From IMG/VR virus record IMGVR_UViG_3300033143_002559, positions 1 through 53,539 of that record: 53,539 nucleotides of DNA. One strand, written 5' to 3'. The stretch comes from a virus. Positions 3,744-41,802 of this stretch are shown here, one piece after another. The stretch's first letter is position 1. The number at the start of each line of letters is the position of its first letter. Below the pieces are notes generated by a model. That model was not told the DNA's origin, did no database searches, and saw only the letters and a program-made list of their open reading frames with translations. A program made the translations under genes and the position numbers.

Positions 3744-6700
3744 CTAGCGTTCCTTGATCCGTCTACGCAAGGTCTTTTTCTCCAGGGTGTTATATCTCCG
3801 ATTGAACTGTTTGAAGAGTTTCTGCATACGCGAGTCGTTGATCTTCACATCCTGATCTTTCAGGAGCCTCACCCTCTTCTCTGTAGCCTGCACCATCTTG
3901 TGAAACCGTAGGGTTTCGACGTGCCGGCGGTAGAACTCTGCCGCAGCCGACTTGTTGGTTTTCTCGAGGTCCTTGTAGGTTTCCCACCGAAGGTAGTGAT
4001 CCGCCATGTTCGCCCGGTACATCTGCGGGGCGAAGAAGGTTCCCTCATCGCCATAGAATGATTTTACGATGGGCATTTCATGGGCAGCAGGCATGGCGCG
4101 GCGTTTCGGGAGGGACATTGCAAGGCTGATGCTGCGGTTGATGAGGTCGCCCAGGCCCCCGAAGTAGCCGGCGGCCAGGTAGTCGATGTTCTCGGGGTTG
4201 ACGTCGATGCTGGTGTGCTTGTAGAGGAACTTTGTAAAATCCTGCGAGGGCTTGGATACTGACGAGAAGGTGTTGTTGTAGTTGGGCGCCTCTTCCCCGT
4301 ACTGTTCAGACTTCTTGTAGAACCGCTTCTCTGGTCTGATGGGCCCGCCCCAAAACGTCTTGTTGCTGGCAACGTCGTTGATTGGGTCATACCAGGAGGG
4401 CACCACCATTTGCTGCCAGCCCAACAGAGTAGAGAGATCGTTGTCTCCGATGGGGTTGAAGGCGCCCATGCCGGAAGCAACGATTCTGGCAGCGGCATCT
4501 GCCGGCGGCACAGCCCCGACGATGACATCGGCCATTGTGGAGCCTAGCATCCAGGCCACATTGAAGCCCCACGGCAGCGGGATTTTGGCTCGTTTGCCTT
4601 TGGTACCAGGGATCATAATAATTATGTTCCTGGATTTTTCGTAGGCCGAAATTTTGTCGTAGTAGGGAATCCCATCTTCCGGGTCATCGCCACCAGCGAT
4701 CCGTGCGGCAAAGGCCCAAGTCATAGCCATTGGGACCATCGAGCCGACGATCGCACGGGCCTTGGGGTTCTTGGTCACGGAGTCGTAGACCATCTTGGAG
4801 CCCTGGAGAGACGCATTGGCGAAGATGTAGAAGGGCGTCAGGGCCTTCGCCACGGTGCCTTGTTGGGTGAAGTCTACGGTGATGTTCCTGGCGAGGCGAG
4901 CGGCCTTGTCCTTGGAGATGTTCATTTCAAGGGCCCGCTCGTAGACCGAGAAGCGCATGGTGTTCTCGATGGCGCCGTTGTAGTCCTCGATGAAGGGGAT
5001 GATTTGCTTCACGACGACAAGGGCCGTGGCCTCTTTGCCGGCCTTCTTCGCCTTGGTGAGATTCTTCTGTAGCATCTTCATCTGGCGCTCGAGGTCGGGG
5101 ATGATCCAGAAGGAGGTTTCGCCGCCGGCCAGCTTGAACGCCTCCACCCGACTCCGTTTCTCCTGATCCATCTTGTCGAGCGTGTCCCTGCTCTCCCGCC
5201 GGGCATACTCTTTCAGGATCGCCCACGATGACCCCCACTTCGTCATCGTCTTGAGGCCGAATCCCTCGAACTGCTTCTCGCCGGCCAGCTTGATCCCTGC
5301 GGTGATGGCATCGCGGAAAGCGTTGGGGATAGCAAATGCCGGGTTGCGGCTAGTGAACAGCTTGGACATCTCGCGGTTGACGAAGGTGAAGCCGCGGAGG
5401 AAGGCGGGGATGTTTGCCGGACCGATATTGTTGAGCGCGGAGACAAACGGGGCCATCTCGGGGCTGATGTGCCGGATGTAGTAGAGCTTGCCGTCGATCC
5501 AGACGTTGTACACGTTGTCCTTGGTAACGGAAAGCCCGTCCGCAACCTCTTTGATGGCGCCGGTTTTCTCGTCGTAGATCATACGCTTAGAGGGGCGGTT
5601 GATCTCGAACAGCTTCTCACCCTTGGCATCTGTCGCGTTCTTAAACCTTTGGGCGAAATTCCATACGGCCTTTGCTACACGGTTCTTCTCGCCGCGCACA
5701 GCCGCTTCCATTGTGTCAGTGATGAGCTCCAGGGTTGCGGAGTGCTGCGGGAAGCTCCTACGGCCCAGGGCCCTGTGCGCGGCTGGCCGGCGTCCTGGGT
5801 TGTAGCCCCTGCCTGTACCCAGGCGCTTCGTTACCTCTTTGTCGAGGCCGAATGACCGAGCGGTACGTGCCAGGGCCCGGTGCCACATCTTCCCGCCGTA
5901 CATCTCGATCGCCTCAATAGGCAGTCGACGCCCACCAGCGATAACGTCCAGGATGTCGGGGTCCTTGCCGCGCATGGGCGAGTAGTGCTTGTAGTCCCGC
6001 CACTTCTTGAGCTCCTCTTTCGAGAGGAGGCCGGCTTTGAAGAGGGTGTTTTCCTTCCACCGGACGATCTTGGAGAACCGCTTGCTGATCCGGCCCATAG
6101 ATCCGCCGTAGGTGGTGTTGGGCCCCGCCTCACCATCAAACGTTACGGACCCGGTGAGGTCACGCATCTCGTTGAGGATCTCTTTCGCGTGATCGTCCTC
6201 GATGCCGGAGTGCGGCACATTGTCGTCGGCAACCATCTTGTCGATCGCCGCCACCTTCTCCTCGGCAGTAGCGAGCGCCTCGTTCTTGAGTTGATCGAGG
6301 GGCATGGAGACGGTCGCTCTCAGCCCGGTCTCCGGGTTGTGGAAGTAGACGTCGGCAATCTTGGCCTCTTTGTCGATGACCTTGATGGTGCCGATATTGC
6401 CACGATCCAGGGCCCGAACCTTCATTCCCTCGGAAAGCCCCTTGTCCTCGAGGGCGTCGATCTTCTTCTGAAGGATCTGTTTGGGGATGGTGACGTGGCC
6501 GGCGAAAATCTTGGGGTTGCGCTCGAGGGCGTGTGCCGCCATGCGGAAGAGATCGAAGTCTGAGAAGCTAACCCCTTCGGCCGCGAGCTGATCCGTGAAC
6601 GGGACAAACAGGTTGTTCTCCAACCAGTCGAGGAGGGCGCCAGAACGAGCCGAGAAGTTTTGAGCCTTCAGGAAGCCATCCATCGCCTCATTGAGCTGTT

Positions 6701-9700
6701 CGCCAAACTCAGTGAGCTTCTCCTGGACATGGACGATGGGGGCAATCTTCTGAAACAGGAACCGCTTGCCTCGCTCTCGGATATGTTCCGTCAGGGTCTC
6801 ATCCGGGAGCATGGCCGCAGGATGCTCGGTATCGTCCGCGATCTCGAGGGAGTAGAAGGTGTCGGGATCAGCAATCCTCTCGACGGGGCTCAACTCATCA
6901 GCGATGACCTTTGGCACCTTGCCGAATCCTGGCGGGTTCTTCTTGGCCTGTTTGAGCGCATCAGTCAGCTCATTCTCTGCCAGCTTCGCCGCTTTTTCGG
7001 CCTCTTTCTGTGCTTCCTCGGCACTCAGGATGGCATTCTCGATGGAGTAGAGCGCGGTGGCGCCCTGGTCGCCTGTGACTGTGTACTTTTTGCCCTTCTG
7101 GAGCTCGTAGACGTCGCCGGTCGCGATCTTCTTCATAACGCCGGCAGCGGTCTCGGGGGTGATGCCCAACGACTCCGAGAATGCACGGGCGAAATCGTAG
7201 ATGGCTTTCAAGGCACGCTCGGCCACGGTCAGCTTCTTCTCGCCCTCGAAATGCTTCTCCGCAAGCTGTTGGTAGGCTTTAGCTGCTTTCTCCTCGGTCC
7301 CGTACTCCTTGAGGATGGCCTGGCGCTGCTTCTCCTCCAGAACGTTGTGGAAGGCGAAGTGGAAGGACTCGTGGTAGAGGGTGTCTGGAGTCGCGTGAGG
7401 CGCCACGAGGCTGATTATGTGGGCCCCGGTAGCCTCGTAGAAGGTGTAGCTGCCCTTGACTACAGCGGTGCCGGCGGCGAGGCGGGCCCTGACCTCATCA
7501 GGATCCATCTTGTAGGCTTTCGCCATTCGCTGAATGCTTGCCTCGCTGTGGACCTTCGGCGCGGTGAAGTTGACCTGGAGGACGGGTTGGCCCTTACGTG
7601 TTACCTGGAAGCGGCCGGGCTTGGTTTGTCTGACGCCCCACCCCCTGAAGGTGCGTCGGATGTCCTGGACGGTTGGGAGCTTGGTTTCGGTTGGTTTTTC
7701 TAGGGACTCCTGCCTGAAGTCTTTTGGGCGGGCCATTTGAGGCTTCGGCCCAAGCCCCATGTTGCCCTTGCCGGTCTTGCTGAGGAGAGCAACCGCATCA
7801 TCGACGGTGGACAGATCAGTGAGAAGGCCACGTTCGATCGCTGATTCTCGAACCTGATCTGTGTGGACCTCGACACTCTTCGCTCGAGCCTTTGTTCCAG
7901 ACACAGGCGCGGCTGTGGGTTTCGGGGCACGGAAGTATGGAAGAATATCCCTGTTCTCATCCGGCACAAACCACTTGCCGGTTTTCGGGTGTCGCTCGTA
8001 GACTTGAACCAGACCCTTCATCTCTTTTAAGAATTCGTATTGCCTCTCATGCTCCTCTCGTTCGGCCTCGATGTTCTCGTTCGCGTACTCTGCCTGCGCT
8101 CGGGCCACTTCGATGCCGTAACGCATCCCGGCCTCGTTGATCGCAAAGCCGTCCGGGTCGATTCGTCCAGGCAGGACGCGGTAGGCGCCATCGACCTTCT
8201 CGACGACACCGAGCTTCACAAACTCCTCGATCGCATCATTGACCCTGGCTATTCTGATGCCGGCCTTACCAAAGCCGGTCATCTCCATGAGCTTCTCCTG
8301 TACCTCGTCCCCTGTCAGTAATTTACCTTCATTTTGGGTGAGTACGGCAGCTACGGCCTTGGGGTACTCTGAGGTGTTTTTGGTTTGCTGGATGCGTGAT
8401 GCCTGTTTGGGCTTGAAGGTAATAGCAGGGGCGGCTTCACCCGTAACGGGGGCAATGGGTGCCGGGACCGCTCCTGCCGGTTCTATCCCGGCTTGTCCTT
8501 CTTCCTCCTTCGCAGCGATACGGTCAATCTCTGCCTCTTCACCCACCGGCACCGGAGCCCCAATCTCGTCGAGGTCGGCCTGTGTGGGCTGTACCGGCTG
8601 TTCTATCCCCCCGGGCGCCACAAGGCCCTCTAACGGCGCGGAAGGTTGGGCCTCAGTAGCGGGCACGGCGCCCTCTGGAGCGGCAGGGAGCGGCCCAGGC
8701 TCCTCGATGGGCACCATTCCAGGCTCTACGGCGGCCTCGTCCTCCGGCAAGACACTCAAATCCTCCTGGTCTGGCTGTTCCATGCCACCAGAGAGGAAGG
8801 TTTCGGCCTCTTCTGCCGCTTGCTCGAGCTGCACGATCGCATCCTCGAGTGTCACATCGGCGCGGCCCTCGATAATCCGCTCAAGGTCGATCTCCTGGCC
8901 CTGGGCCCATGCGAGGCGGTCGTTGCCCTCGAGCCACAGAGGGGCGGCATTCCAGCGGGCGTTGTTGCGGACCTCTGGAGGAATGGTGGGTCCTTCCGGC
9001 CCCCCTGCCGGCGGGAGGAGATCTTCGCCAACAGGTGCCGCAGGACCGGATGGACCCTCAATCGGTGCTACGCCTTGTTCTATCGGCGGCATTGGCTCGA
9101 ATTCAGGTACGGCAAGGGGTTGATCGCCGGGGACTCCCTCGGCCTGTTGGATGTTGCCGGGGCCGGCGCCGCCCATGATCCCACCAATGAGGGCCCCTTG
9201 AATCATCGACTCAATCACCTGGGAGATGTTTTGCTCTATGCCCTCTGGAGTCAGCCAGCTTACCTTCTCGAGCTCGCCCTTCTCTGCATGGGCTATGTCG
9301 ACCGCGGTTTGCTCAACGAGTGTTTGGATCCCCTCGGTTCCGGCCTCCTCGAGCGCCTGGCGGCCACCGGACATTACACGCGCAACGAGCGCCTTCTTGA
9401 ACGTGTCGCGGACGATAGGCACCCTCTTGAGGAGGTTAGCGATAGGCATGGCCTCGAGTGCGCCGGCCATTACGCCGTAGGTGGCCGCAATGATGTCCGC
9501 TTCCGGGCCCTCGAATCCGGCACGGGCCAGGTCCTCAGAGATAGAGCCGGTTTCCAGGCCAGCGCCGGCAGCAAAGACAAGCCCCGTACCTATCCCACCA
9601 GCTACCGCAGCTGTGCCGGCGCCACCGACGCCAGCCAGGGCAGCGGCTCCAGCGATACCGCCAGGCAGCAGGCCAGCCCCGACGATCGAGCCCATGATCG

Positions 9701-10481
9701 GGGTCTGTGTCCCGAGGGCCTGTGCGACGTACATGGTGAAGTCGTCCCACCCGTGGACATCGCCAAACTCACCGACCCTCGGGGGCGGAGCCATGAGCTC
9801 GGAGCCCACAGAGAGATCCGTAGCCATCTCACGGGCCGCATCCCCAACCTCGGTGCCTTTATTTGCGAGGTAGCCGCCGGTCTTGGTTTGGAAGAGTGGA
9901 TTTGTGTAGCCGATTCCGGTCGCGCCAGCCACAGTTGGAGAGTTTGCCAGGAACCCGGCGCCGTTCTCTATAGCGATGCCCGCCGCCCTGGTAAAGAACG
10001 CAGCGGTCTTCGAATTCGATCGCTCGAGGGCCCGGCCGTACTCAGCTACCGTGGTAGCGGCCTTCTGTGTCGGGAGGTTTGACGCTACCCCGGCGATAAC
10101 GCCGACCTTCTCCAGCGCATCCCAAATGTCGGTGCCACTCCTAACAAACGGCGAATCCCAATGGCTCTCCGTCTCCTGCTCGTTTGCCTCGTCGTCCCCA
10201 GTAATCAGCTCACGGAGAGTGCGGCGCTCGGGGGGAGCAATCTGATCCCAGTAGGCGCCGGTGCTCCTGGCTTCCTCATTGAAGCGCCTCTGTCGCTCGA
10301 TCCTCGGCAGGGCGAGAAACTCAGGGTCGTCGCGGAGGTTGTGGAGGCGGGTCCTCTGGTTCATGGCCTCGAACCCGCCGAATTTTTCGTAGTCATTCAG
10401 CAGGTTTTCGATGTACAGCCTAGAGGTGCCATCCGGGAAGGCTACGACCTCTCCGCCGGGGAATCGGAGCCGGAGGGTCAT
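3744..10481 (-). CDS. Giant polyvalent (LPD-type) virion protein, 2245 aa, with HExxH metalloprotease-like motif
   Basis: Probably an internal virion protein ejected into the host with the DNA. Residues 1-110 are helical. Residues about 130-430 are Gly/Ala-rich and hydrophobic, with potential membrane-inserting stretches (around IAGAAALAGVGGAGTAAVAG). Residues 435-700 are a Pro/Glu/Ala-rich linker. A zincin-like HESFH lies at residues 1037-1041 in a TLYHESFHFAFH context. The C-terminal third has helical regions typical of large polyvalent protein-associated domains; the segment near residue 1700 (SRNPAFAIPNAFRDAI) recalls LPD38. Polyvalent proteins of phages and conjugative elements are known to join protease, nuclease or modification domains into ejected proteins. 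It is last in the virion arm, after four small structural proteins. Enzymatic activity is inferred only from the motif. Confidence 0.8.
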   Translation of the reverse strand: MTLRLRFPGGEVVAFPDGTSRLYIENLLNDYEKFGGFEAMNQRTRLHNLRDDPEFLALPRIERQRRFNEEARSTGAYWDQIAPPERRTLRELITGDDEANEQETESHWDSPFVRSGTDIWDALEKVGVIAGVASNLPTQKAATTVAEYGRALERSNSKTAAFFTRAAGIAIENGAGFLANSPTVAGATGIGYTNPLFQTKTGGYLANKGTEVGDAAREMATDLSVGSELMAPPPRVGEFGDVHGWDDFTMYVAQALGTQTPIMGSIVGAGLLPGGIAGAAALAGVGGAGTAAVAGGIGTGLVFAAGAGLETGSISEDLARAGFEGPEADIIAATYGVMAGALEAMPIANLLKRVPIVRDTFKKALVARVMSGGRQALEEAGTEGIQTLVEQTAVDIAHAEKGELEKVSWLTPEGIEQNISQVIESMIQGALIGGIMGGAGPGNIQQAEGVPGDQPLAVPEFEPMPPIEQGVAPIEGPSGPAAPVGEDLLPPAGGPEGPTIPPEVRNNARWNAAPLWLEGNDRLAWAQGQEIDLERIIEGRADVTLEDAIVQLEQAAEEAETFLSGGMEQPDQEDLSVLPEDEAAVEPGMVPIEEPGPLPAAPEGAVPATEAQPSAPLEGLVAPGGIEQPVQPTQADLDEIGAPVPVGEEAEIDRIAAKEEEGQAGIEPAGAVPAPIAPVTGEAAPAITFKPKQASRIQQTKNTSEYPKAVAAVLTQNEGKLLTGDEVQEKLMEMTGFGKAGIRIARVNDAIEEFVKLGVVEKVDGAYRVLPGRIDPDGFAINEAGMRYGIEVARAQAEYANENIEAEREEHERQYEFLKEMKGLVQVYERHPKTGKWFVPDENRDILPYFRAPKPTAAPVSGTKARAKSVEVHTDQVRESAIERGLLTDLSTVDDAVALLSKTGKGNMGLGPKPQMARPKDFRQESLEKPTETKLPTVQDIRRTFRGWGVRQTKPGRFQVTRKGQPVLQVNFTAPKVHSEASIQRMAKAYKMDPDEVRARLAAGTAVVKGSYTFYEATGAHIISLVAPHATPDTLYHESFHFAFHNVLEEKQRQAILKEYGTEEKAAKAYQQLAEKHFEGEKKLTVAERALKAIYDFARAFSESLGITPETAAGVMKKIATGDVYELQKGKKYTVTGDQGATALYSIENAILSAEEAQKEAEKAAKLAENELTDALKQAKKNPPGFGKVPKVIADELSPVERIADPDTFYSLEIADDTEHPAAMLPDETLTEHIRERGKRFLFQKIAPIVHVQEKLTEFGEQLNEAMDGFLKAQNFSARSGALLDWLENNLFVPFTDQLAAEGVSFSDFDLFRMAAHALERNPKIFAGHVTIPKQILQKKIDALEDKGLSEGMKVRALDRGNIGTIKVIDKEAKIADVYFHNPETGLRATVSMPLDQLKNEALATAEEKVAAIDKMVADDNVPHSGIEDDHAKEILNEMRDLTGSVTFDGEAGPNTTYGGSMGRISKRFSKIVRWKENTLFKAGLLSKEELKKWRDYKHYSPMRGKDPDILDVIAGGRRLPIEAIEMYGGKMWHRALARTARSFGLDKEVTKRLGTGRGYNPGRRPAAHRALGRRSFPQHSATLELITDTMEAAVRGEKNRVAKAVWNFAQRFKNATDAKGEKLFEINRPSKRMIYDEKTGAIKEVADGLSVTKDNVYNVWIDGKLYYIRHISPEMAPFVSALNNIGPANIPAFLRGFTFVNREMSKLFTSRNPAFAIPNAFRDAITAGIKLAGEKQFEGFGLKTMTKWGSSWAILKEYARRESRDTLDKMDQEKRSRVEAFKLAGGETSFWIIPDLERQMKMLQKNLTKAKKAGKEATALVVVKQIIPFIEDYNGAIENTMRFSVYERALEMNISKDKAARLARNITVDFTQQGTVAKALTPFYIFANASLQGSKMVYDSVTKNPKARAIVGSMVPMAMTWAFAARIAGGDDPEDGIPYYDKISAYEKSRNIIIMIPGTKGKRAKIPLPWGFNVAWMLGSTMADVIVGAVPPADAAARIVASGMGAFNPIGDNDLSTLLGWQQMVVPSWYDPINDVASNKTFWGGPIRPEKRFYKKSEQYGEEAPNYNNTFSSVSKPSQDFTKFLYKHTSIDVNPENIDYLAAGYFGGLGDLINRSISLAMSLPKRRAMPAAHEMPIVKSFYGDEGTFFAPQMYRANMADHYLRWETYKDLEKTNKSAAAEFYRRHVETLRFHKMVQATEKRVRLLKDQDVKINDSRMQKLFKQFNRRYNTLEKKTLRRRIKER

Positions 10482-11377
10482 TGGCGCCTGGCCGGATTAA
10501 TCTGTCCGTCTCCACCCACGGCGTACTCATTCGCATCTTGGATTTCAGATCCAGTAAATATATCAAAAGCCTGCCCTTTAAGTCGGCCCTCTCTGGCACG
10601 GGCAAGATACTCAAGATATTGGGTTATGTGAGGCCCAAGCCTCGTCTTAGCAAGATCAGACACCTCACTGTCTATAAATTTTTGAACGATAGCGTCCCAG
10701 TTGTTGCCCTTAAATTCTGTCTCCAGTTCCGGCCAAAACTGGACAACCTCAGTCATTACTTTTGCAGCAAGAGTACTCGCCTTCTCTTCTTGCCCCATCG
10801 CAAATTTATCCCATTGCGCCTTTCCTGTTGCCGTCATGTTGCCCCTGGCGCTGGCACGAACGGACTGTTCGAGAATCGGATCTGTTGGGATACCGCCGGC
10901 CTGGGCCGTCATTCGGTCTGCGGAAGTCATCGCTGGTTTCGGAGCGATCATCATGGGATCTTTGCCGGGAACCGACATGGTGCCACCGGCCTCTATCCCG
11001 CGTCCTGTCATCAGCGTGTCAGACTTCTTGAGCCGATCCATAGCGATCTTGTGTTCCTCGTCCTCTTTCATCTGTTGCATGATGAGCTTCGCCGCGGCCT
11101 GGTCCTCACCGGAGACGCCCGCACGCCTCGAGGGGCCGTAGTGAGTGAATCTGCCACCTGGGGAGATCGACCGCTCACGACGATGGCGCGGGGTCATCAG
11201 GAAGTCGTAGAGGTCCTGGAGAGTGCTGCCCCGCGGCTCCTCTGACGGGTCCGGGCCCAGGCCGGACATATCGAGCTCTCGCGGTCCGCCGGGGACATTT
11301 GGAGGCATTGGCGGAGGACCATAGCCCCCAGTCTCGTAACCGCGCATGAGGATGTCGAGCATTTGTGGGTCAATCAT
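10478..11377 (-). CDS. Probable minor virion protein, 299 aa
   Basis: Overlaps the start of the giant gene by four bases, with GAGGGGG before its own ATG. N-terminal half is Pro/Gly/Arg-rich and disordered (PPPMPPNVPGGPRELD); residues 95-150 and 175-270 are helical. No recognised family. Position in the block of four low-complexity proteins before the giant protein suggests an internal or ejected virion component. Confidence 0.6.
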   Translation of the reverse strand: MIDPQMLDILMRGYETGGYGPPPMPPNVPGGPRELDMSGLGPDPSEEPRGSTLQDLYDFLMTPRHRRERSISPGGRFTHYGPSRRAGVSGEDQAAAKLIMQQMKEDEEHKIAMDRLKKSDTLMTGRGIEAGGTMSVPGKDPMMIAPKPAMTSADRMTAQAGGIPTDPILEQSVRASARGNMTATGKAQWDKFAMGQEEKASTLAAKVMTEVVQFWPELETEFKGNNWDAIVQKFIDSEVSDLAKTRLGPHITQYLEYLARAREGRLKGQAFDIFTGSEIQDANEYAVGGDGQINPARRQ

Positions 11378-34585: not shown

Positions 34586-35077
34586 CTAAATTCCGACGTG
34601 CTGTGATAGCACGGTGTCAACGAGGCGGAAAAGTCCGCGGTAGACGGTATCCCCGGCTATTTCCTCTTTCAAGGTGCCCTGGGGTGCGATGAAGATGAGG
34701 GCGTCCGCGATGCCGGTAACGGCAGATTTATCGAAATCCGCGTACCACTCGCCCGCGACCGCAACGAGACCGTACTTGGTTCCTGGGATGAATGTTGAGG
34801 CGTCGGTAACAACCGCGCCACTCACATCCCATGTATCGAGTTGGATAATATCGCCGGGAAACAGCGGGGTAGCAACAGCGTCTTCGCCTGTCGTGCCCGA
34901 TGCGTCGGCCTGTGCCAGTCCTAAGAGTACGGAGTCTGCGTTATCCAGAATCCGCATCTCGCCAGAAGCGTCGAGGGCGAGAAAATCACCGGCTTCCCAC
35001 GATTGGGAAGCGTCTTCGAGCCCGTGATAGGACTGACGGCGCCAGGTTGAAACAATAACCGGCTTTACTGCCGCCAT
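34586..35077 (-). CDS. Candidate head decoration protein, 163 aa
   Basis: Beta-rich, Ala/Gly/Thr/Asp-rich protein immediately upstream of the capsid gene. The motif AGDFLALDASGEMRILDNAD followed by VLLGLAQADASGT resembles decoration or head-stabilising proteins of the capsid-decoration type, which plug threefold sites. Strong AGGAGG before the ATG. Assigned by pattern and position. Confidence 0.6.
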   Translation of the reverse strand: MAAVKPVIVSTWRRQSYHGLEDASQSWEAGDFLALDASGEMRILDNADSVLLGLAQADASGTTGEDAVATPLFPGDIIQLDTWDVSGAVVTDASTFIPGTKYGLVAVAGEWYADFDKSAVTGIADALIFIAPQGTLKEEIAGDTVYRGLFRLVDTVLSQHVGI

Positions 35078-36695: not shown

Positions 36696-36968
36696 TTACT
36701 CCTCCTTCTCTACTTTCGGCGGCTTTTCGAGAGCCATTGCGAGATAACCATCCTGGGTTCTACCCTGTGCGGCGAGGGTTGCAAGCTCTGCGGGATTTCT
36801 CCCTAGCTGGAGCATTGCATCCTGGGTGGCATATTTATCGGCTGCGAACATATCTATCATCGCTCCCCATTCAGGCTGACGCTTGAGGTGGTTGATCTCC
36901 GTCTGGTTCCATTCCGGCAGGTGGGACGTCGGAGACCTGTCCTCCAATGTCCACGAGTTGTGATTCAT
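36696..36968 (-). CDS. Small portal-adjacent protein, 90 aa
   Basis: Start chosen at MNHNSWTLEDR (36968), inside the end of the portal gene (98-base overlap), since the residues WNQTEINHLKRQPEWGAMID are protein-like and the upstream part of the frame is Ser/Arg shadow. The C-terminal half is helical (MLQLGRNPAELATLAAQGRT). Small helical proteins of the form LT-x-E-x-x-x-L-x-x-x-P-x-W ending in a QGR helix are frequent next to portal genes in podovirus-like genomes. A later start (36860, 54 aa) would avoid the overlap. Role unknown. Confidence 0.6.
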   Translation of the reverse strand: MNHNSWTLEDRSPTSHLPEWNQTEINHLKRQPEWGAMIDMFAADKYATQDAMLQLGRNPAELATLAAQGRTQDGYLAMALEKPPKVEKEE

Positions 36969-38847
36969 CGTCGATGACTCTTGCTTGGAGCTGTTGGATG
37001 ATGTTCGTGAGTTGGGCGATGGTTTGCGCCATAGCCTCGCCAGCCATTTTGGAACCCTCGATGTCGAGCTCATTCTTAACCTCCTGCATATCGAACTCCG
37101 CTAGGAATTCGTTGAGGACGAGATCATACACATCAAGGAAGTTTCCGGCGAGGGCAGCAAGTGGCCCGCCCTCAACAGCCACCGATCCCATCTCCGCCGC
37201 ACCGTTGAAGATTTCCGGTAGCTTGTCGACCATTGCCAGGATCTCTTGTTTCTTGATCGCCTTGGACATGGTTTGCGAGTTGACCTTGGTCTCGATGATG
37301 ATTTGGTCTTTCCAGTATCCCGGCGGGAACTCGATGGTCATGGCCTTCATCATCTCGCCAAGCTCCTCGTCCTGGGCGTCGATGAAGATTTGCATGGACT
37401 GGGGATTGAACTGGCGGTAGCGCGAGTATTGCATCTGGACGATGCGGGCGAGGAACTCCCGGTAGCGGGTCATCATCTCGAACAGGGGTTGCATGGCCCG
37501 CTCGAGGATGGCGCTGGTTCCGGTCGCGGTCGGCCGTTCCGCGAGCTCCTGGCCGAAGAAGGCCGGCGGGATAGAGGCGGCATCGTGCATGTGCTTGACG
37601 ATGCGCTCGAGCAGGTTGAGGAGGAAGCCAACATCGCCGGAGGCCAGGCGGACCTCCATGATCCCTTTGCGGAGATCGTCGATCATCGCATCCTCAACTT
37701 CGGCCAGGCCGGGGCCGAGTTCCCCGTTATCGAGGAAGTTGGAGAGTTTGAGGCGCTTGAGGGCGATGAGGAGCGGGTTGATCGCTCGCACGCCAGCGTC
37801 GAGGAGGATGTTCATAATCGCCACGTATGCGCGGTGGAGCTGATCCAGCACGGAGCAGAGCGATTTGCCGTCCATTGAGGCGAGGGTTGGGTGCCAGGCG
37901 AAGGTTGAGTACGGGCGGGGGAAGTCCTGGTAGAAGGGGCCATGCGCTGCCAGCCACGTTTTCTGTTTCAGGTCGAGGATGATGACGACCTCTTCGCCGT
38001 CGTAGACGGTGTAGGTCTCCATGAGGGAGACCTCCGAGAGTTCGGTCTTGTTCGCCTTGGGCTCAATCCCGTGGGCAGCATGGATCTCTTCCTTGGCGAG
38101 TTCGGCATCGGCATCCTCGCGGGCCTCACCGATCGACATAGGATCCAGGTCTTTGCGGTAGTAGTCCTTGTCCTGTTCGATCTTGATTTTCCCCGGCGTA
38201 CTCTCGAACCGCTCACAGAACCACCTTGCCTCATCGACCGATGCGGAGGGGATGGGGTGATAGATCCGGCGGGTATCGACAACGTAGGGGAAGCACCCCT
38301 CGTCCTCGATAATGGTTTTGGTTTGTTCAACGTCCTCGCCCATCTCATCGACATCCCAGTACCGGATTTTTCGCTCACGGAAGGACCAGGCGGTTTTGAC
38401 GACGGACTTGGTGAAGATTTGGGCGCCGCGGATCGAGTCGTTAACGACGGCCTCGTATTTCGAGCGATCGGCCATCCAGTCGATGAGGACATCGTGCGCG
38501 GAGGCCATTTCGGTAAATCCAGGCCGGCCCTTGCCGACGAAGATTTGATCCTGGGCGAACACTGGGTTGGAGATGTTCGACCCGGCGTGCCTGCAAATCT
38601 CGAACGTGATGGTGAAATCGAGTTGCGCGTCTTTGTCGCCGCGGGCCTTGGGATCTCCGGTGGCCCAGTAGTTTTCCTCGCAGGACGTCCATTCCGGCTC
38701 GAGGGTGTCCTTGCGGTTCTCCACCACCTCGTCGATCTCGTCACAGAGGGCGACAACGAAGGCATCGAACGCCTCATCTTCTCCGAGCTTCTTGACTAAG
38801 TGGGTTATTTCGTAGGTTTGCGGGGGTTTCCGTGTGGCTTGAGTCAT
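36871..38847 (-). CDS. Portal protein, 658 aa
   Basis: Dodecameric channel for DNA entry and exit at one capsid vertex. Length and layout fit P22-type portals: N-terminal helices, a wing domain (WAPFY-like FRERKIRYWDVDEMGEDVEQ and EDEGCFPYVVDTRRIYHP), stem and crown with long helices (LHRAYVAIMNILLDAGVRAI; ATGTSAILERAMQPLFEMMT), and a coiled-coil barrel (MAQTIAQLTNIIQQLQARV) at the C-terminus. It lies directly downstream of the large terminase with ATGA-like overlap, the canonical order. The barrel-like C-terminal coiled coil suggests regulated DNA ejection as in P22. Confidence 0.88.
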   Translation of the reverse strand: MTQATRKPPQTYEITHLVKKLGEDEAFDAFVVALCDEIDEVVENRKDTLEPEWTSCEENYWATGDPKARGDKDAQLDFTITFEICRHAGSNISNPVFAQDQIFVGKGRPGFTEMASAHDVLIDWMADRSKYEAVVNDSIRGAQIFTKSVVKTAWSFRERKIRYWDVDEMGEDVEQTKTIIEDEGCFPYVVDTRRIYHPIPSASVDEARWFCERFESTPGKIKIEQDKDYYRKDLDPMSIGEAREDADAELAKEEIHAAHGIEPKANKTELSEVSLMETYTVYDGEEVVIILDLKQKTWLAAHGPFYQDFPRPYSTFAWHPTLASMDGKSLCSVLDQLHRAYVAIMNILLDAGVRAINPLLIALKRLKLSNFLDNGELGPGLAEVEDAMIDDLRKGIMEVRLASGDVGFLLNLLERIVKHMHDAASIPPAFFGQELAERPTATGTSAILERAMQPLFEMMTRYREFLARIVQMQYSRYRQFNPQSMQIFIDAQDEELGEMMKAMTIEFPPGYWKDQIIIETKVNSQTMSKAIKKQEILAMVDKLPEIFNGAAEMGSVAVEGGPLAALAGNFLDVYDLVLNEFLAEFDMQEVKNELDIEGSKMAGEAMAQTIAQLTNIIQQLQARVIDDESQLVDIGGQVSDVPPAGMEPDGDQPPQASA

Positions 38848-40517
38848 CGTCTACCCCCACCTCTCACCAGTCCATAACGGACGGGCATCGGATGAACATT
38901 GGTTCCGTATTCGTCATCGCTCTCATCTCGAATATGGGTCGTGGAGTAGCGTTTGTCATCCTCTGCGTAGATCCACCAGTCAACGTGCATTGGCATGGTG
39001 TCCGCCAGCGCAGGGCTGTCTCCCATGATTGTTCCATCTGGTGCGATGTTGAGGTTGACCAGATGGGATACAACTTCTTCATGATCAGGGTATAGCACAA
39101 AAACCTGATGATCCGCAACGTAGGGATGGAATCTGTCGAGCAAGCGCCTGCCCTTGCTCTGCCCTCCTGGGGTAAACGGTTCGATTTTGATGTAGATGCT
39201 CCGCTTGACCATTTCCTGCTTCAGCCAGGCGCCAACCCACACTTGCATGGCGCCGGCCTCGGGGATGAGCAAGCGGGCATCCCACTTGATCCCCATGTCG
39301 AGGAGGGCGGTGATTTGCGCCATCGGGTTTGGGTGTTCCTCGCGCCAGTAGTCGAGCAGGCACCCGAAGCGCATTGACGGCAGCCACCAGAACGCGGTGA
39401 TACCGGAATCGTTGGAGTCTTTATTGAGTCCGCCGGTCGGATCCATCGCCACGGTAACGAAGCCGAGCGATGCTGGGTAAGCCACGCCGTCGATGTAGAT
39501 GGCTTGCAGTTTGCCGTTAGAGTCATGTGATCTGGTGTAGGGCAGGAAGTCCTCACGCCGGAAGCGCCGGATCCCCTCGTCGAGAAGGACGTTGAGCATC
39601 TGGTGAGCGAACTTGTAGGATCCCATTTGCCGGAGGGTTTTCTTGAGTCCCTCCATTGTTCGCCGCTCGGGGAAGATGGGTTGCCCCTCCTGCCACACGA
39701 GCTCGCGGTTGGGCTCCAGCACGCTCTCGTTGATGTACTCCTCGTTATCGGTTGGGAGTTTCAGGCCGAGGGAATCGAGGAAGTTATACCACTGGTCGTT
39801 GCAGTAGCATCCGAGAACCATCTTGCAGTAGTCGGGGCTCTTGAGGAGCTGTTCATAGTAGCCCTTCTCGCCGCCGGGCCAGAGGGTGCCGATGATGAGG
39901 AGGATGGAGTTTTCATCCTCGAACAGCGGGTCCAGGGTCTCAAGGAACTCGACGGCGCCGACCATCTCCGCGGCTGAGTTGGCGGCTTTGTTGTCCACAC
40001 CGTCGTCGACGATGATGATGTCGTAGTGCCCGCCGACGATACCGGACTTGACGCCGGCCAGGGTGACGGATGCCTCGGGGCTCTCGATGGTGCGCGTGAC
40101 GGAGAATTCCGTAGCGGTCCAGACGTTGCGCCTGGCATCCGGTGGTGGGACAAGGCCGGGGAAGTAGAGGCGCATGGCGCGGCCCTGGAGGATGTGTTTG
40201 ATCTTCCGGCCCTTCTTCTTCGCCTCGTCCAAGTTGTGCATACACATCAAGATACGTTTGTTTGGGTCGTTGATTAGGATGTGGACGATGTAGGCGATGT
40301 TGAGGAGCGAGGTCTTGAAGTGACCTCGAGGGACCATGCAGAGGAACCAGCGGTTTCCTTCGTCGAGCCCCTTTTGGAACCACATCGCCATAGCGAAGTG
40401 CAGCACGAGGGAGAGCTTGTGGAATTCGCAGAGATACCAGGCGGTCCAGAAGATGCTTTTCCGACACTTTGCTTGGATTTTCTTGATGTCAATGGGCGCT
40501 TCTTCGGCGCCTGGCAT
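38844..40517 (-). CDS. terL: Terminase large subunit
   Basis: 557-residue packaging ATPase-nuclease. Visible ATPase motifs: Walker A-type VPRGHFKTSL (residues about 63-72), Walker B YDIIIVDDGVD (about 180), and the coupling segment LLIIGTLWPGG (about 219). The nuclease domain starts around VTVAMDPTGGLNKDSNDSGI with the first catalytic Asp. GAGGAG precedes the ATG, which overlaps the small subunit stop (TGATG). It translocates DNA through the portal encoded next and cuts genome ends; end type (headful or cos) cannot be told from sequence, although the circular assembly suggests headful packaging. Confidence 0.93.
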   Translation of the reverse strand: MPGAEEAPIDIKKIQAKCRKSIFWTAWYLCEFHKLSLVLHFAMAMWFQKGLDEGNRWFLCMVPRGHFKTSLLNIAYIVHILINDPNKRILMCMHNLDEAKKKGRKIKHILQGRAMRLYFPGLVPPPDARRNVWTATEFSVTRTIESPEASVTLAGVKSGIVGGHYDIIIVDDGVDNKAANSAAEMVGAVEFLETLDPLFEDENSILLIIGTLWPGGEKGYYEQLLKSPDYCKMVLGCYCNDQWYNFLDSLGLKLPTDNEEYINESVLEPNRELVWQEGQPIFPERRTMEGLKKTLRQMGSYKFAHQMLNVLLDEGIRRFRREDFLPYTRSHDSNGKLQAIYIDGVAYPASLGFVTVAMDPTGGLNKDSNDSGITAFWWLPSMRFGCLLDYWREEHPNPMAQITALLDMGIKWDARLLIPEAGAMQVWVGAWLKQEMVKRSIYIKIEPFTPGGQSKGRRLLDRFHPYVADHQVFVLYPDHEEVVSHLVNLNIAPDGTIMGDSPALADTMPMHVDWWIYAEDDKRYSTTHIRDESDDEYGTNVHPMPVRYGLVRGGGRR

Positions 40518-41161
40518 CAGTTCTCCTCGCCCGGCATCTCGAGTGCGTCACCAAGCATTCGCTGTAGGCGGTCGTCCATTTGCTCGGCCTCTTTGTGGGC
40601 TTTCTTTAAGTCTGCGGGGATGAGCTCACGCATAGCGGACTTCTGTTTGGTTTTCAGGAACAGCCCGGTCCACTCGCGGATCTCTTTGGCGGCCAATTTG
40701 CGGTCGTCCTTGGAGGCCCCATCCTTGCCGGCCTGCCAGTCCTTCCACATTTTGATGGTTTCCGGAGCGGCTTCGATGAGGTGTTCGAGGAGGGTGATTT
40801 TGTGGCGGTAGAAGCGGTGAACGCACTCATCGACGTGCTGTTCGGTCCAGACCTTGTACGCAGCGGGGTTCTTTTCGGCCCATCGACGAGAGAGGCCGGG
40901 GTCGAGGCCGAGGATGCGGTCGATCTGCGTAAACTCCTCACCACCGACCTCATGGAGCAGGGAAACGTATTTCAGGCGGATGTTTTCGATGGCTGTGAGC
41001 TTGTCGGCGCCTACTGCGATGCGCCTTTCCTCGAAGGTGTCTTTGAGGGTTTGGTCGCCGCGGCCGTCCTCCGGGGAGGACACATCGGCGTCACGGCGGG
41101 CTTGCCGTTGAGCGATCCATCGTTTCGCCTTGGCGGTATCGGCGGGCTTTTTGCTCACCAT
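40517..41161 (-). CDS. terS: Candidate terminase small subunit, 214 aa
   Basis: Helical, charged protein located one base-step upstream of terL. It has an HTH-like centre (EVGGEEFTQIDRILGLDPGL) followed by VWTEQHVDECVHRFYRHKIT and a long helical region for oligomerisation, then an acidic C-terminal tail (MLGDALEMPGEEN). Small terminases bind the packaging site and hand DNA to TerL. Assigned by position and helical pattern, not by a firm family match. Ribosome binding site is weak. Confidence 0.65.
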   Translation of the reverse strand: MVSKKPADTAKAKRWIAQRQARRDADVSSPEDGRGDQTLKDTFEERRIAVGADKLTAIENIRLKYVSLLHEVGGEEFTQIDRILGLDPGLSRRWAEKNPAAYKVWTEQHVDECVHRFYRHKITLLEHLIEAAPETIKMWKDWQAGKDGASKDDRKLAAKEIREWTGLFLKTKQKSAMRELIPADLKKAHKEAEQMDDRLQRMLGDALEMPGEEN

Positions 41162-41259
41162 CTTAGGATAACATGGGTTTCAAATGCTGCCGGCGCAACC
41201 CCGTGGTCTGCTAAACCGCGTCTGAGTTTAATTTTTCGTAGTCACACCGACAGCAAAAC

Positions 41260-41343
41260 TGGGGGGACTGCAGGAATCGAACCCACTAGCGAGAGGCCAC
41301 CCCGCCCCAGGTAATCCTGGTTCTCGCAACCATGCGCGCCCCC
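41260..41343 (-). ncRNA. tRNA-like element of 84 nt
   Basis: The minus strand reads a 5' acceptor strand GGGGGCG that can pair with AGTCCCC at the 3' end. A canonical T arm (41270-41286) has a five-pair stem and the loop TTCGATT. The middle is atypical: CCAGG/CCTGG (41316-41320 with 41307-41311) closes a four-base loop, and GCGAGA (41322-41327) pairs with TCTCGC (41289-41294) as an internal long stem. There is no proper D arm or seven-base anticodon loop. It starts six bases after a stop codon. Candidates: degenerate tRNA, a tRNA-mimic RNA, or an attP-like tRNA 3' end; no anticodon is assigned. Confidence 0.55.
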
Positions 41344-41348
41344 ATCAA

Positions 41349-41618
41349 TCATTTCCAGGCGTCTCCGAACGCCTTTTGGGTTGACTCACTGACGATCTCA
41401 GCCATCCTTTGGGTCGTCATCATCTTCTTCGCGTCGTCGTAGTTTTCCGGGTGAACGACGAGGGTTTGTTCGCGCTTCTTGAAATACCGGTGGCGTCTTT
41501 CTCGGGCCTCGAGGTACGGCGCCATCGCCGCGGTCGCGGTTGGGAGCCTTGGTTTCAGCCCCAACGCCGCGGCCAGCGGGGCCGCTCCCAGGAACGCAAA
41601 AAATGATCGGCGGTTCAT
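41349..41618 (-). CDS. Small protein with twin-arginine-type signal, 89 aa
   Basis: Starts MNRRSFFAFLGAAPLAAALG (ATG 41618, GAGG six bases upstream; an earlier in-frame Met is rejected). RRSFF followed by an Ala/Leu-rich stretch looks like a Tat signal that would send the folded protein across the inner membrane. The mature part (residues 30-89) is charged and helical, with YLEARERRHRYFKKREQT. An alternative is a membrane-anchored protein. Small Tat-signal proteins in phage morphogenesis operons are uncommon; function unknown. Confidence 0.6.
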   Translation of the reverse strand: MNRRSFFAFLGAAPLAAALGLKPRLPTATAAMAPYLEARERRHRYFKKREQTLVVHPENYDDAKKMMTTQRMAEIVSESTQKAFGDAWK

Positions 41619-41619
41619 A

Positions 41620-41802
41620 TCAAGCCTCATTCCATTTGACCGTGGCGGTCATTTGCTCATGGGCCTCGAAGACTTGCTCGACCGTCAGGCCTAAAAACGC
41701 CTCTTTCCCGATCATTTTGGCCTCGTGGGTGTCGGGCGCCCGCCCGTGGGTCTCCTCGAATTGCTCGATCGCCTCGCGGATGACGTCCGACAGGTCAGTC
41801 AT
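41620..41802 (-). CDS. Small helical protein, 60 aa
   Basis: Acidic helical protein (MTDLSDVIREAIEQFEETHG, then GLTVEQVFEAHEQMTATVKW). Stop lies two bases before the start of the Tat-signal protein. No motif recognised. Belongs to the run of small genes between the zinc-binding proteins and the terminase. Confidence 0.5.
   Translation of the reverse strand: MTDLSDVIREAIEQFEETHGRAPDTHEAKMIGKEAFLGLTVEQVFEAHEQMTATVKWNEA

Follow-up and report, generated by a model that had tools for sequence, protein, structure and literature searches.

The locus and the fold of the element

The stretch analysed here (the window) is the whole 53,539 nt of the viral record IMGVR_UViG_3300033143_002559, which resembles a tailed phage. 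On its minus strand, a series of small genes runs from 44.6 to 41.35 kb and ends with a 93-aa ORF, and an ORF-free gap (41162-41348) joins this block to the block of the terminase genes. The features of the locus are as follows.

36871-38847: putative portal, named from position and conservation only
38844..40517, minus strand: large terminase subunit TerL, 557 aa (PHROG 38, E 6.1e-42)
40517..41161, minus strand: putative small terminase subunit TerS, 214 aa, first gene downstream of the element, named from its position before TerL; counterparts in L004, L016 and L005
41186..41254, minus strand: long hairpin between the tRNA-like RNA and terS, which folds in the window, L004 and L016
41260..41343, minus strand: tRNA-like RNA element, 84 nt, with 3' CCA (minimum free energy cloverleaf; tRNA-Sec model match with E 4.8e-5 at 27.9 bits, under the cut-off)
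41260..41268, minus strand: acceptor 3' strand GUCCCC (41263-41268) and CCA (41260-41262), from the fold
41270..41286, minus strand: T arm GUGGG-UUCGAUU-CCUGC, from a T-arm box match and the fold
41289..41305, minus strand: long variable arm GCGGGG-UGGCC-UCUCGC, from the fold
41307..41320, minus strand: anticodon-position hairpin CCAGG-AUUA-CCUGG, whose 4-nt loop can present no anticodon, from the fold
41325..41336, minus strand: D arm CGCA-UGGU-UGCG, with a 4-nt D loop like that of tRNA-Sec, from the fold
41338..41343, minus strand: acceptor stem 5' strand GGGGGC, from the fold
41349..41630, minus strand: small ORF, 93 aa, just upstream of the element; counterparts in L004 and L016 by position and N-terminal motif

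Neither the putative TerS nor the putative portal matched a protein family. Elsewhere on the minus strand of the window, a single ORF of 2245 aa (3744-10481) encodes a giant phage protein.

The free space between tightly packed genes, which an earlier sequence-only reading had pointed out, is real, but its terS-side half is occupied by a different conserved hairpin. Counterparts of this hairpin lie at the same place in the contigs L004 (910-979) and L016 (4470-4548), where a T run follows the stem and where the tRNA-like part is missing. Comparison of the 11-pair stem between the window and these two contigs shows three pairs with compensatory changes on both sides, four altered on a single side, three identical throughout, and one that L004 no longer forms. 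No ordinary terminator was called on the minus strand, and the hairpin reads as a terminator-like element between the gene blocks, separate from the tRNA-like RNA. Since the tRNA-like element precedes this hairpin, it would end the upstream message at its 3' side.

The 84-nt element is read from 41343 to 41260 as GGGGGCGCGCATGGTTGCGAGAACCAGGATTACCTGGGGCGGGGTGGCCTCTCGCTAGTGGGTTCGATTCCTGCAGTCCCCCCA. The features that the sequence-only reading described at these coordinates are present, namely ends that pair, a canonical T arm and a CCAGG/CCTGG hairpin whose loop has four bases, and the strand is the minus one. The lowest-energy fold of the 84-mer is a class-II, five-armed cloverleaf of -36.9 kcal/mol, with about 26 standard pairs (some of them G-U) distributed over five stems and with its oddities confined to loops and joints. 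The same reading had enclosed the hairpin in a GCGAGA/TCTCGC stem; such a fold can form, but at best reaches -34.8 kcal/mol, about 2 kcal/mol weaker than the cloverleaf, which assigns GCG to the D arm and TCTCGC to the long variable arm. Competing folds thus lie within about 2 kcal/mol of the cloverleaf, and when three flanking bases are added on each side the minimum switches to a different fold of near-equal energy, the centroid being the cloverleaf. A single G.A mismatch lies below the acceptor GGGGGC/GUCCCC, the stems being otherwise intact. The acceptor therefore consists of six pairs plus G.A, with CCA directly after it, its register is ambiguous within the C run, and no clear discriminator base is found ahead of the CCA. 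The D loop (GG) and the T loop (UUCGAUU) are able to build a tRNA elbow.

Known RNA classes, chance and alternative readings

The element was compared with the defining features of several RNA classes. The general tRNA model RF00005 gave no match to it even at E<=10 and ARAGORN called neither a tRNA nor a tmRNA there, whereas the Rfam tRNA-Sec covariance model (RF01852) matched it with E = 4.8e-5 across the whole 53.5-kb record. Because the tRNA-Sec model also gives ordinary tRNAs about 20-45 bits, the score of 27.9 bits, under the cut-off of 47 bits and under the 60.8 and 82 bits of real tRNA-Sec genes on phage contigs, is to be read as tRNA-shaped with a tRNA-Sec-type D arm and not as tRNA-Sec. 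The 5-bp T stem and TTCRANN loop of canonical tRNAs are found in the element, whereas a 4-nt AUUA loop closed by a 5-bp stem takes the place of the 7-nt anticodon loop with U33, and no alternative register with a stem for an anticodon arm was found within the element. Since a loop of four nucleotides leaves neither an anticodon nor U33, no ordinary codon reading would be possible. With a predicted tRNA-like fold and a non-decoding 4-nt loop, the element is a candidate for the broad class of pseudo-tRNAs, whose members are shaped like tRNAs but cannot serve translation.

Several readings compete with a non-decoding RNA. That the element could be an unusual yet working tRNA, for example an adaptor like tRNA-Sec or the allo-tRNAs, is suggested by its class-II shape, by the 6-7 bp long variable arm, by the UGGU tetraloop of the D arm (its stem has 4 bp in the lowest-energy fold and is longer, with a mismatch, in the model alignment) and by tRNA-Sec being the best model match. 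This is very unlikely given the five-pair-closed loop that offers no anticodon, the UCA of tRNA-Sec being absent, and given acceptor/T stems of 6-7/5 bp, to be compared with the 8/5 of tRNA-Sec (an 8-bp acceptor) and the 8/4 or 9/3 of allo-tRNAs (a 12-bp acceptor domain) (PMC7609411). The likeness to the tRNA-like part of tmRNA that had been remarked upon appears superficial: the element is only 84 nt long, neither Rfam nor ARAGORN gave a tmRNA match, and a fold of the tmRNA type comes out less stable. The old tRNA-derived attachment site of the same reading, which would be left over from the 3' end of a host tRNA, is the least probable of all these explanations. The T arm and the acceptor 3' strand do form the usual att core, but the locus holds an entire cloverleaf with a pairing 5' strand and not merely the 3' end of a tRNA, and no tyrosine integrase (PF00589) or serine resolvase (PF00239) was found among the proteins of the record, which may be incomplete.

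A resemblance produced by chance, or an element acting at the DNA level or on the plus strand, such as a packaging signal near terS, has more in its favour and is still improbable. Single cues are indeed frequent: the T-arm box alone is expected 0.81 times per shuffled window and the T arm together with the acceptor 0.17 times, neither of which is significant on its own. The folding energy of the minus strand is ordinary (z -0.43), that of the plus strand gives a better z-score (-1.89), and packaging sites frequently adjoin terS. Against this stand the record-wide E value of the minus-strand match and the result of dinucleotide shuffling, in which only 2 of 5000 shuffled 84-mers folded with four or more arms enclosed by a terminal stem of 5 bp or longer. 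The shuffles and the tRNA-Sec model show that the whole tRNA-like shape is beyond chance, whereas the single cues are not. Together with the cloverleaf and the 4-nt loop, these results bear out the description as tRNA-like but lacking a normal anticodon arm, and on its anatomy alone we regard the element with confidence as a tRNA-like, non-decoding RNA.

Relatives of the phage and elements of similar shape

The only further copy of the element was found on contig L006, which is 99.9% identical to the window. An IMG/VR search with a specific pattern of D arm and hairpin returned the same phage only, and blastn against phages and plasmids gave chance-level matches only for the element. Separately, L006 lacks the 49 bases at 34609-34657 of the window, between two structural genes. 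More distant relatives, reached through TerS and TerL (L004, L005/L017 and L016; TerL identity 58-59%), do not carry the element, and no TerL relative was found among 84,980 bacterial genomes. Comparison of these contigs indicates that the element is lineage-specific among the phages seen and, given three relatives without it at 58-59% TerL identity, not essential to the phage group. The 14-mer CCAGGTAATCCTGG also occurs, as does a T-loop hairpin, on another contig, L012; this contig was rejected as a relative, its 14-mer lying in opposite orientation and the structure, with a 14-bp stem, belonging to an unrelated element, a probable coincidence.

Two scans of viral contigs were performed with the D and T loops of the window element as the pattern, the acceptor pairing being left free. 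The likeness of D and T loops among the matches is therefore imposed by the pattern and says nothing on common ancestry with the window element. The scans returned ordinary tRNAs as well as sequences without an ARAGORN call; after removal of near-duplicates, 16 of 34 uncalled matches had a strong acceptor, whereas 400 permutations gave 2.3 on average and 7 at most. A Watson-Crick pair closing the D loop was present in 12 of the 16 matches with a strong acceptor and in 6 of the 18 without. Applied to bacterial genomes, this pattern returned no more than 11 matches, a few of them tRNA-like. Several of the uncalled tRNA-like elements are close to real tRNA genes, for example in L022 and L036, and their anticodon-position arms are varied:

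L074: stem of about 11 bp
L106: 7-bp stem with a large loop
L048: long stem
L051: 6-nt loop
L035: 4-nt loop

Homologous phage elements were found in L083 (about 1352-1434) and L065 (about 11234-11316), with an 8-bp acceptor and a long anticodon-position arm bearing the common loop AGAAGCCA(A/G)TT; between them, pairing is retained through two double changes and one T-stem pair is broken. Five matches (L023, L027, L028, L042 and L044) were discarded as ordinary tRNA sequences with chance upstream matches, and the L021/L033 group was excluded for its other register.

Some further forms were encountered. Around 7330-7425 of L035, the tRNA-like structure has an acceptor of 12 bp, four nucleotides in its anticodon-position loop, and two hairpins with T loops. 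L050 has, at about 1643-1718, an element resembling tRNA-Sec (33 bits) whose anticodon-position loop contains CUA and which is a possible amber suppressor. In MAGs of Uhrbacteria and Peribacteria (L135, L136), tRNA-like genes with a UGGU D tetraloop are missed by ARAGORN. The cluster-A mycobacteriophages L155, L156, L157 and L160 have, around 440-545 and roughly 1 kb from the right end of the genome, a T-arm hairpin that is not annotated, with ACTA and a second hairpin after it. It is possibly a related tRNA-like element; the T arm is shared, but the acceptor and D parts are unclear, and the cluster-A elements were not counted as members.

A weak match of L048 pointed to the Gordonia phage OneUp, in which an unannotated gap contains a mini element of about 56 nt (L146, 1487-1543), also unannotated and present near 1501-1558 of L147-L154. 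About 14 distinct Gordonia phages (Smoothievirus/Oneupvirus), cultured and sequenced, carry it, and one laboratory strain served for the isolation of most of them. In genome coordinates it lies between genes, at 91138-91368 of OneUp and 91053-91278 of Smoothie. In OneUp it reads GCGAUG-CAUGGUG-UCUACU-GUCUA-AGUAGA-UGAGG-UUCGAUU-CCUCA-CAUCGC-A, that is, a six-pair acceptor, a T arm and an anticodon-position loop of 5 nt (GUCUA). Between OneUp and Engineer/Smoothie, one acceptor pair has changed from A-U to U-A and one T-stem pair from A-U to C-G, while one pair is changed on one side only and the outermost T pair is lost. Because of the two double compensatory changes, the Gordonia phages seem to keep this non-decoding tRNA-like RNA as an RNA. 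Among Rfam shapes, mascRNA is its best match, under the threshold. No paper on the Gordonia element, or on a phage class of this kind, was found in the open-access literature, a silence which is weak evidence of novelty.

Proposed function, possible decay and comparison with known systems

We propose, with a probability of about 0.5, that the window element is a functional non-decoding tRNA-like RNA which forms the 3' end of an operon and is released by RNase P in the manner of mascRNA. Starting from what was computed (the cloverleaf, the tRNA model match, the 4-nt loop and the position), we infer transcription, RNase P cutting and a role as follows. The small genes upstream (minus strand, 44.6 to 41.35 kb) and the element would share one transcript, the element closing their message at its 3' end just ahead of the terminator-like hairpin and the terminase genes. 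Its transcript would fold into a class-II tRNA shape in which the D and T loops make the elbow. Host RNase P would then cut the 5' end of the element, freeing a small, stable RNA whose CCA is encoded, and this cut would set the 3' end of the upstream mRNA, as for mascRNA from MALAT1. RNase P recognises the stack of acceptor and T arm together with the elbow, the anticodon being irrelevant, and cuts several non-tRNA substrates; release by this enzyme is predicted from this recognition and from the position of the element. The RNA could punctuate the message at its 3' end and/or act as a decoy that draws off tRNA-binding or tRNA-cutting host proteins.

The main rival is a decaying class-II tRNA gene, captured by an ancestor of the phage and now drifting without function, which we consider possible but somewhat less probable than a function. 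Along such a route, the anticodon loop might have become shorter by about 3 nt and the region near the acceptor by 1-2 nt, an account that would fit the odd acceptor end, the G.A mismatch and the 4-nt loop. The relatives without the element suggest that it was gained recently and is dispensable, and phage contigs show ordinary and broken tRNAs together. The same mismatch, the lack of a clear discriminator base, the model score well below the cut-off and the competing folds all count against a function. However, all five stems still pair, the departures being in loops and joints, and comparable non-decoding forms covary in the Gordonia phages. Of the options raised in the sequence-only reading, a tRNA mimic and a degenerate tRNA are both plausible; we lean towards a non-decoding tRNA-like RNA, since one G.A mismatch is the only flaw in the stems and since covariation is seen in similarly shaped elements of other phages.

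More tentatively, many kinds of phage may encode largely unannotated tRNA-like RNAs with non-decoding anticodon-position arms, which would be under selection at the RNA level and help either to process 3' ends or, as tRNA decoys, to counter host defences; the window and Gordonia elements would be members. Such RNAs would, on this equally tentative proposal, retain the acceptor, the elbow of D loop and T loop, and the T arm. Phage annotation would miss them because tRNA finders are built round a 7-nt anticodon loop. Should RNAs of this kind indeed be maintained by phages, they could act as decoys for defences that cut tRNA, as RNase P-based punctuation of mRNAs or as regulators, and the roughly 14 cultured Gordonia phages with the mini element make the question directly testable.

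The Gordonia mini element resembles that of the window in its 6-bp acceptor, CAUGGUG D segment, UUCGAUU T arm and non-decoding anticodon-position loop (here of 5 nt); unlike it, the Gordonia form has only about 56 nt and neither variable arm nor D stem, and homology is not claimed. Among known RNAs, the mascRNA / MENbeta tRNA-like RNA (RF01684), which is freed by RNase P, is similarly small, with an acceptor and a T arm, without a decodable anticodon and at the 3' end of a longer RNA. It is, however, an animal nuclear RNA, whereas the window element has a long variable arm, a processing that is predicted, and a score of 13.3 bits with the mascRNA model against a cut-off of 42.5. The tRNA-Sec family (RF01852), the best Rfam match, shares the class-II shape, the UGGU D loop of 4 nt and the long variable arm, and differs in its score (27.9 bits for the window against a cut-off of 47), its UCA, its 6-bp D stem (4 bp in the window) and its 8-bp acceptor (6-7 bp). 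The allo-tRNAs and the irregular allo-tRNA-like RNAs of soil metatranscriptomes are tRNA-Sec-like irregular cloverleaves too, some of them unusable in E. coli translation, but allo-tRNAs carry an anticodon and their acceptor/T stems are 8/4 or 9/3, neither of which is true of the window element (PMC7609411). The pseudo-tRNA tRNA-Other of Bacillus cereus is likewise a tRNA-like RNA outside translation, with a cellular effect, but it has kept a Trp anticodon and lies on a chromosomal island and not in a phage (PMC3399842). The phage M3 RNA and the phage-derived C4 antisense RNA are non-tRNA phage RNAs that are RNase P substrates (PMC11143913), and the window element is likened to them by description and not by sequence.
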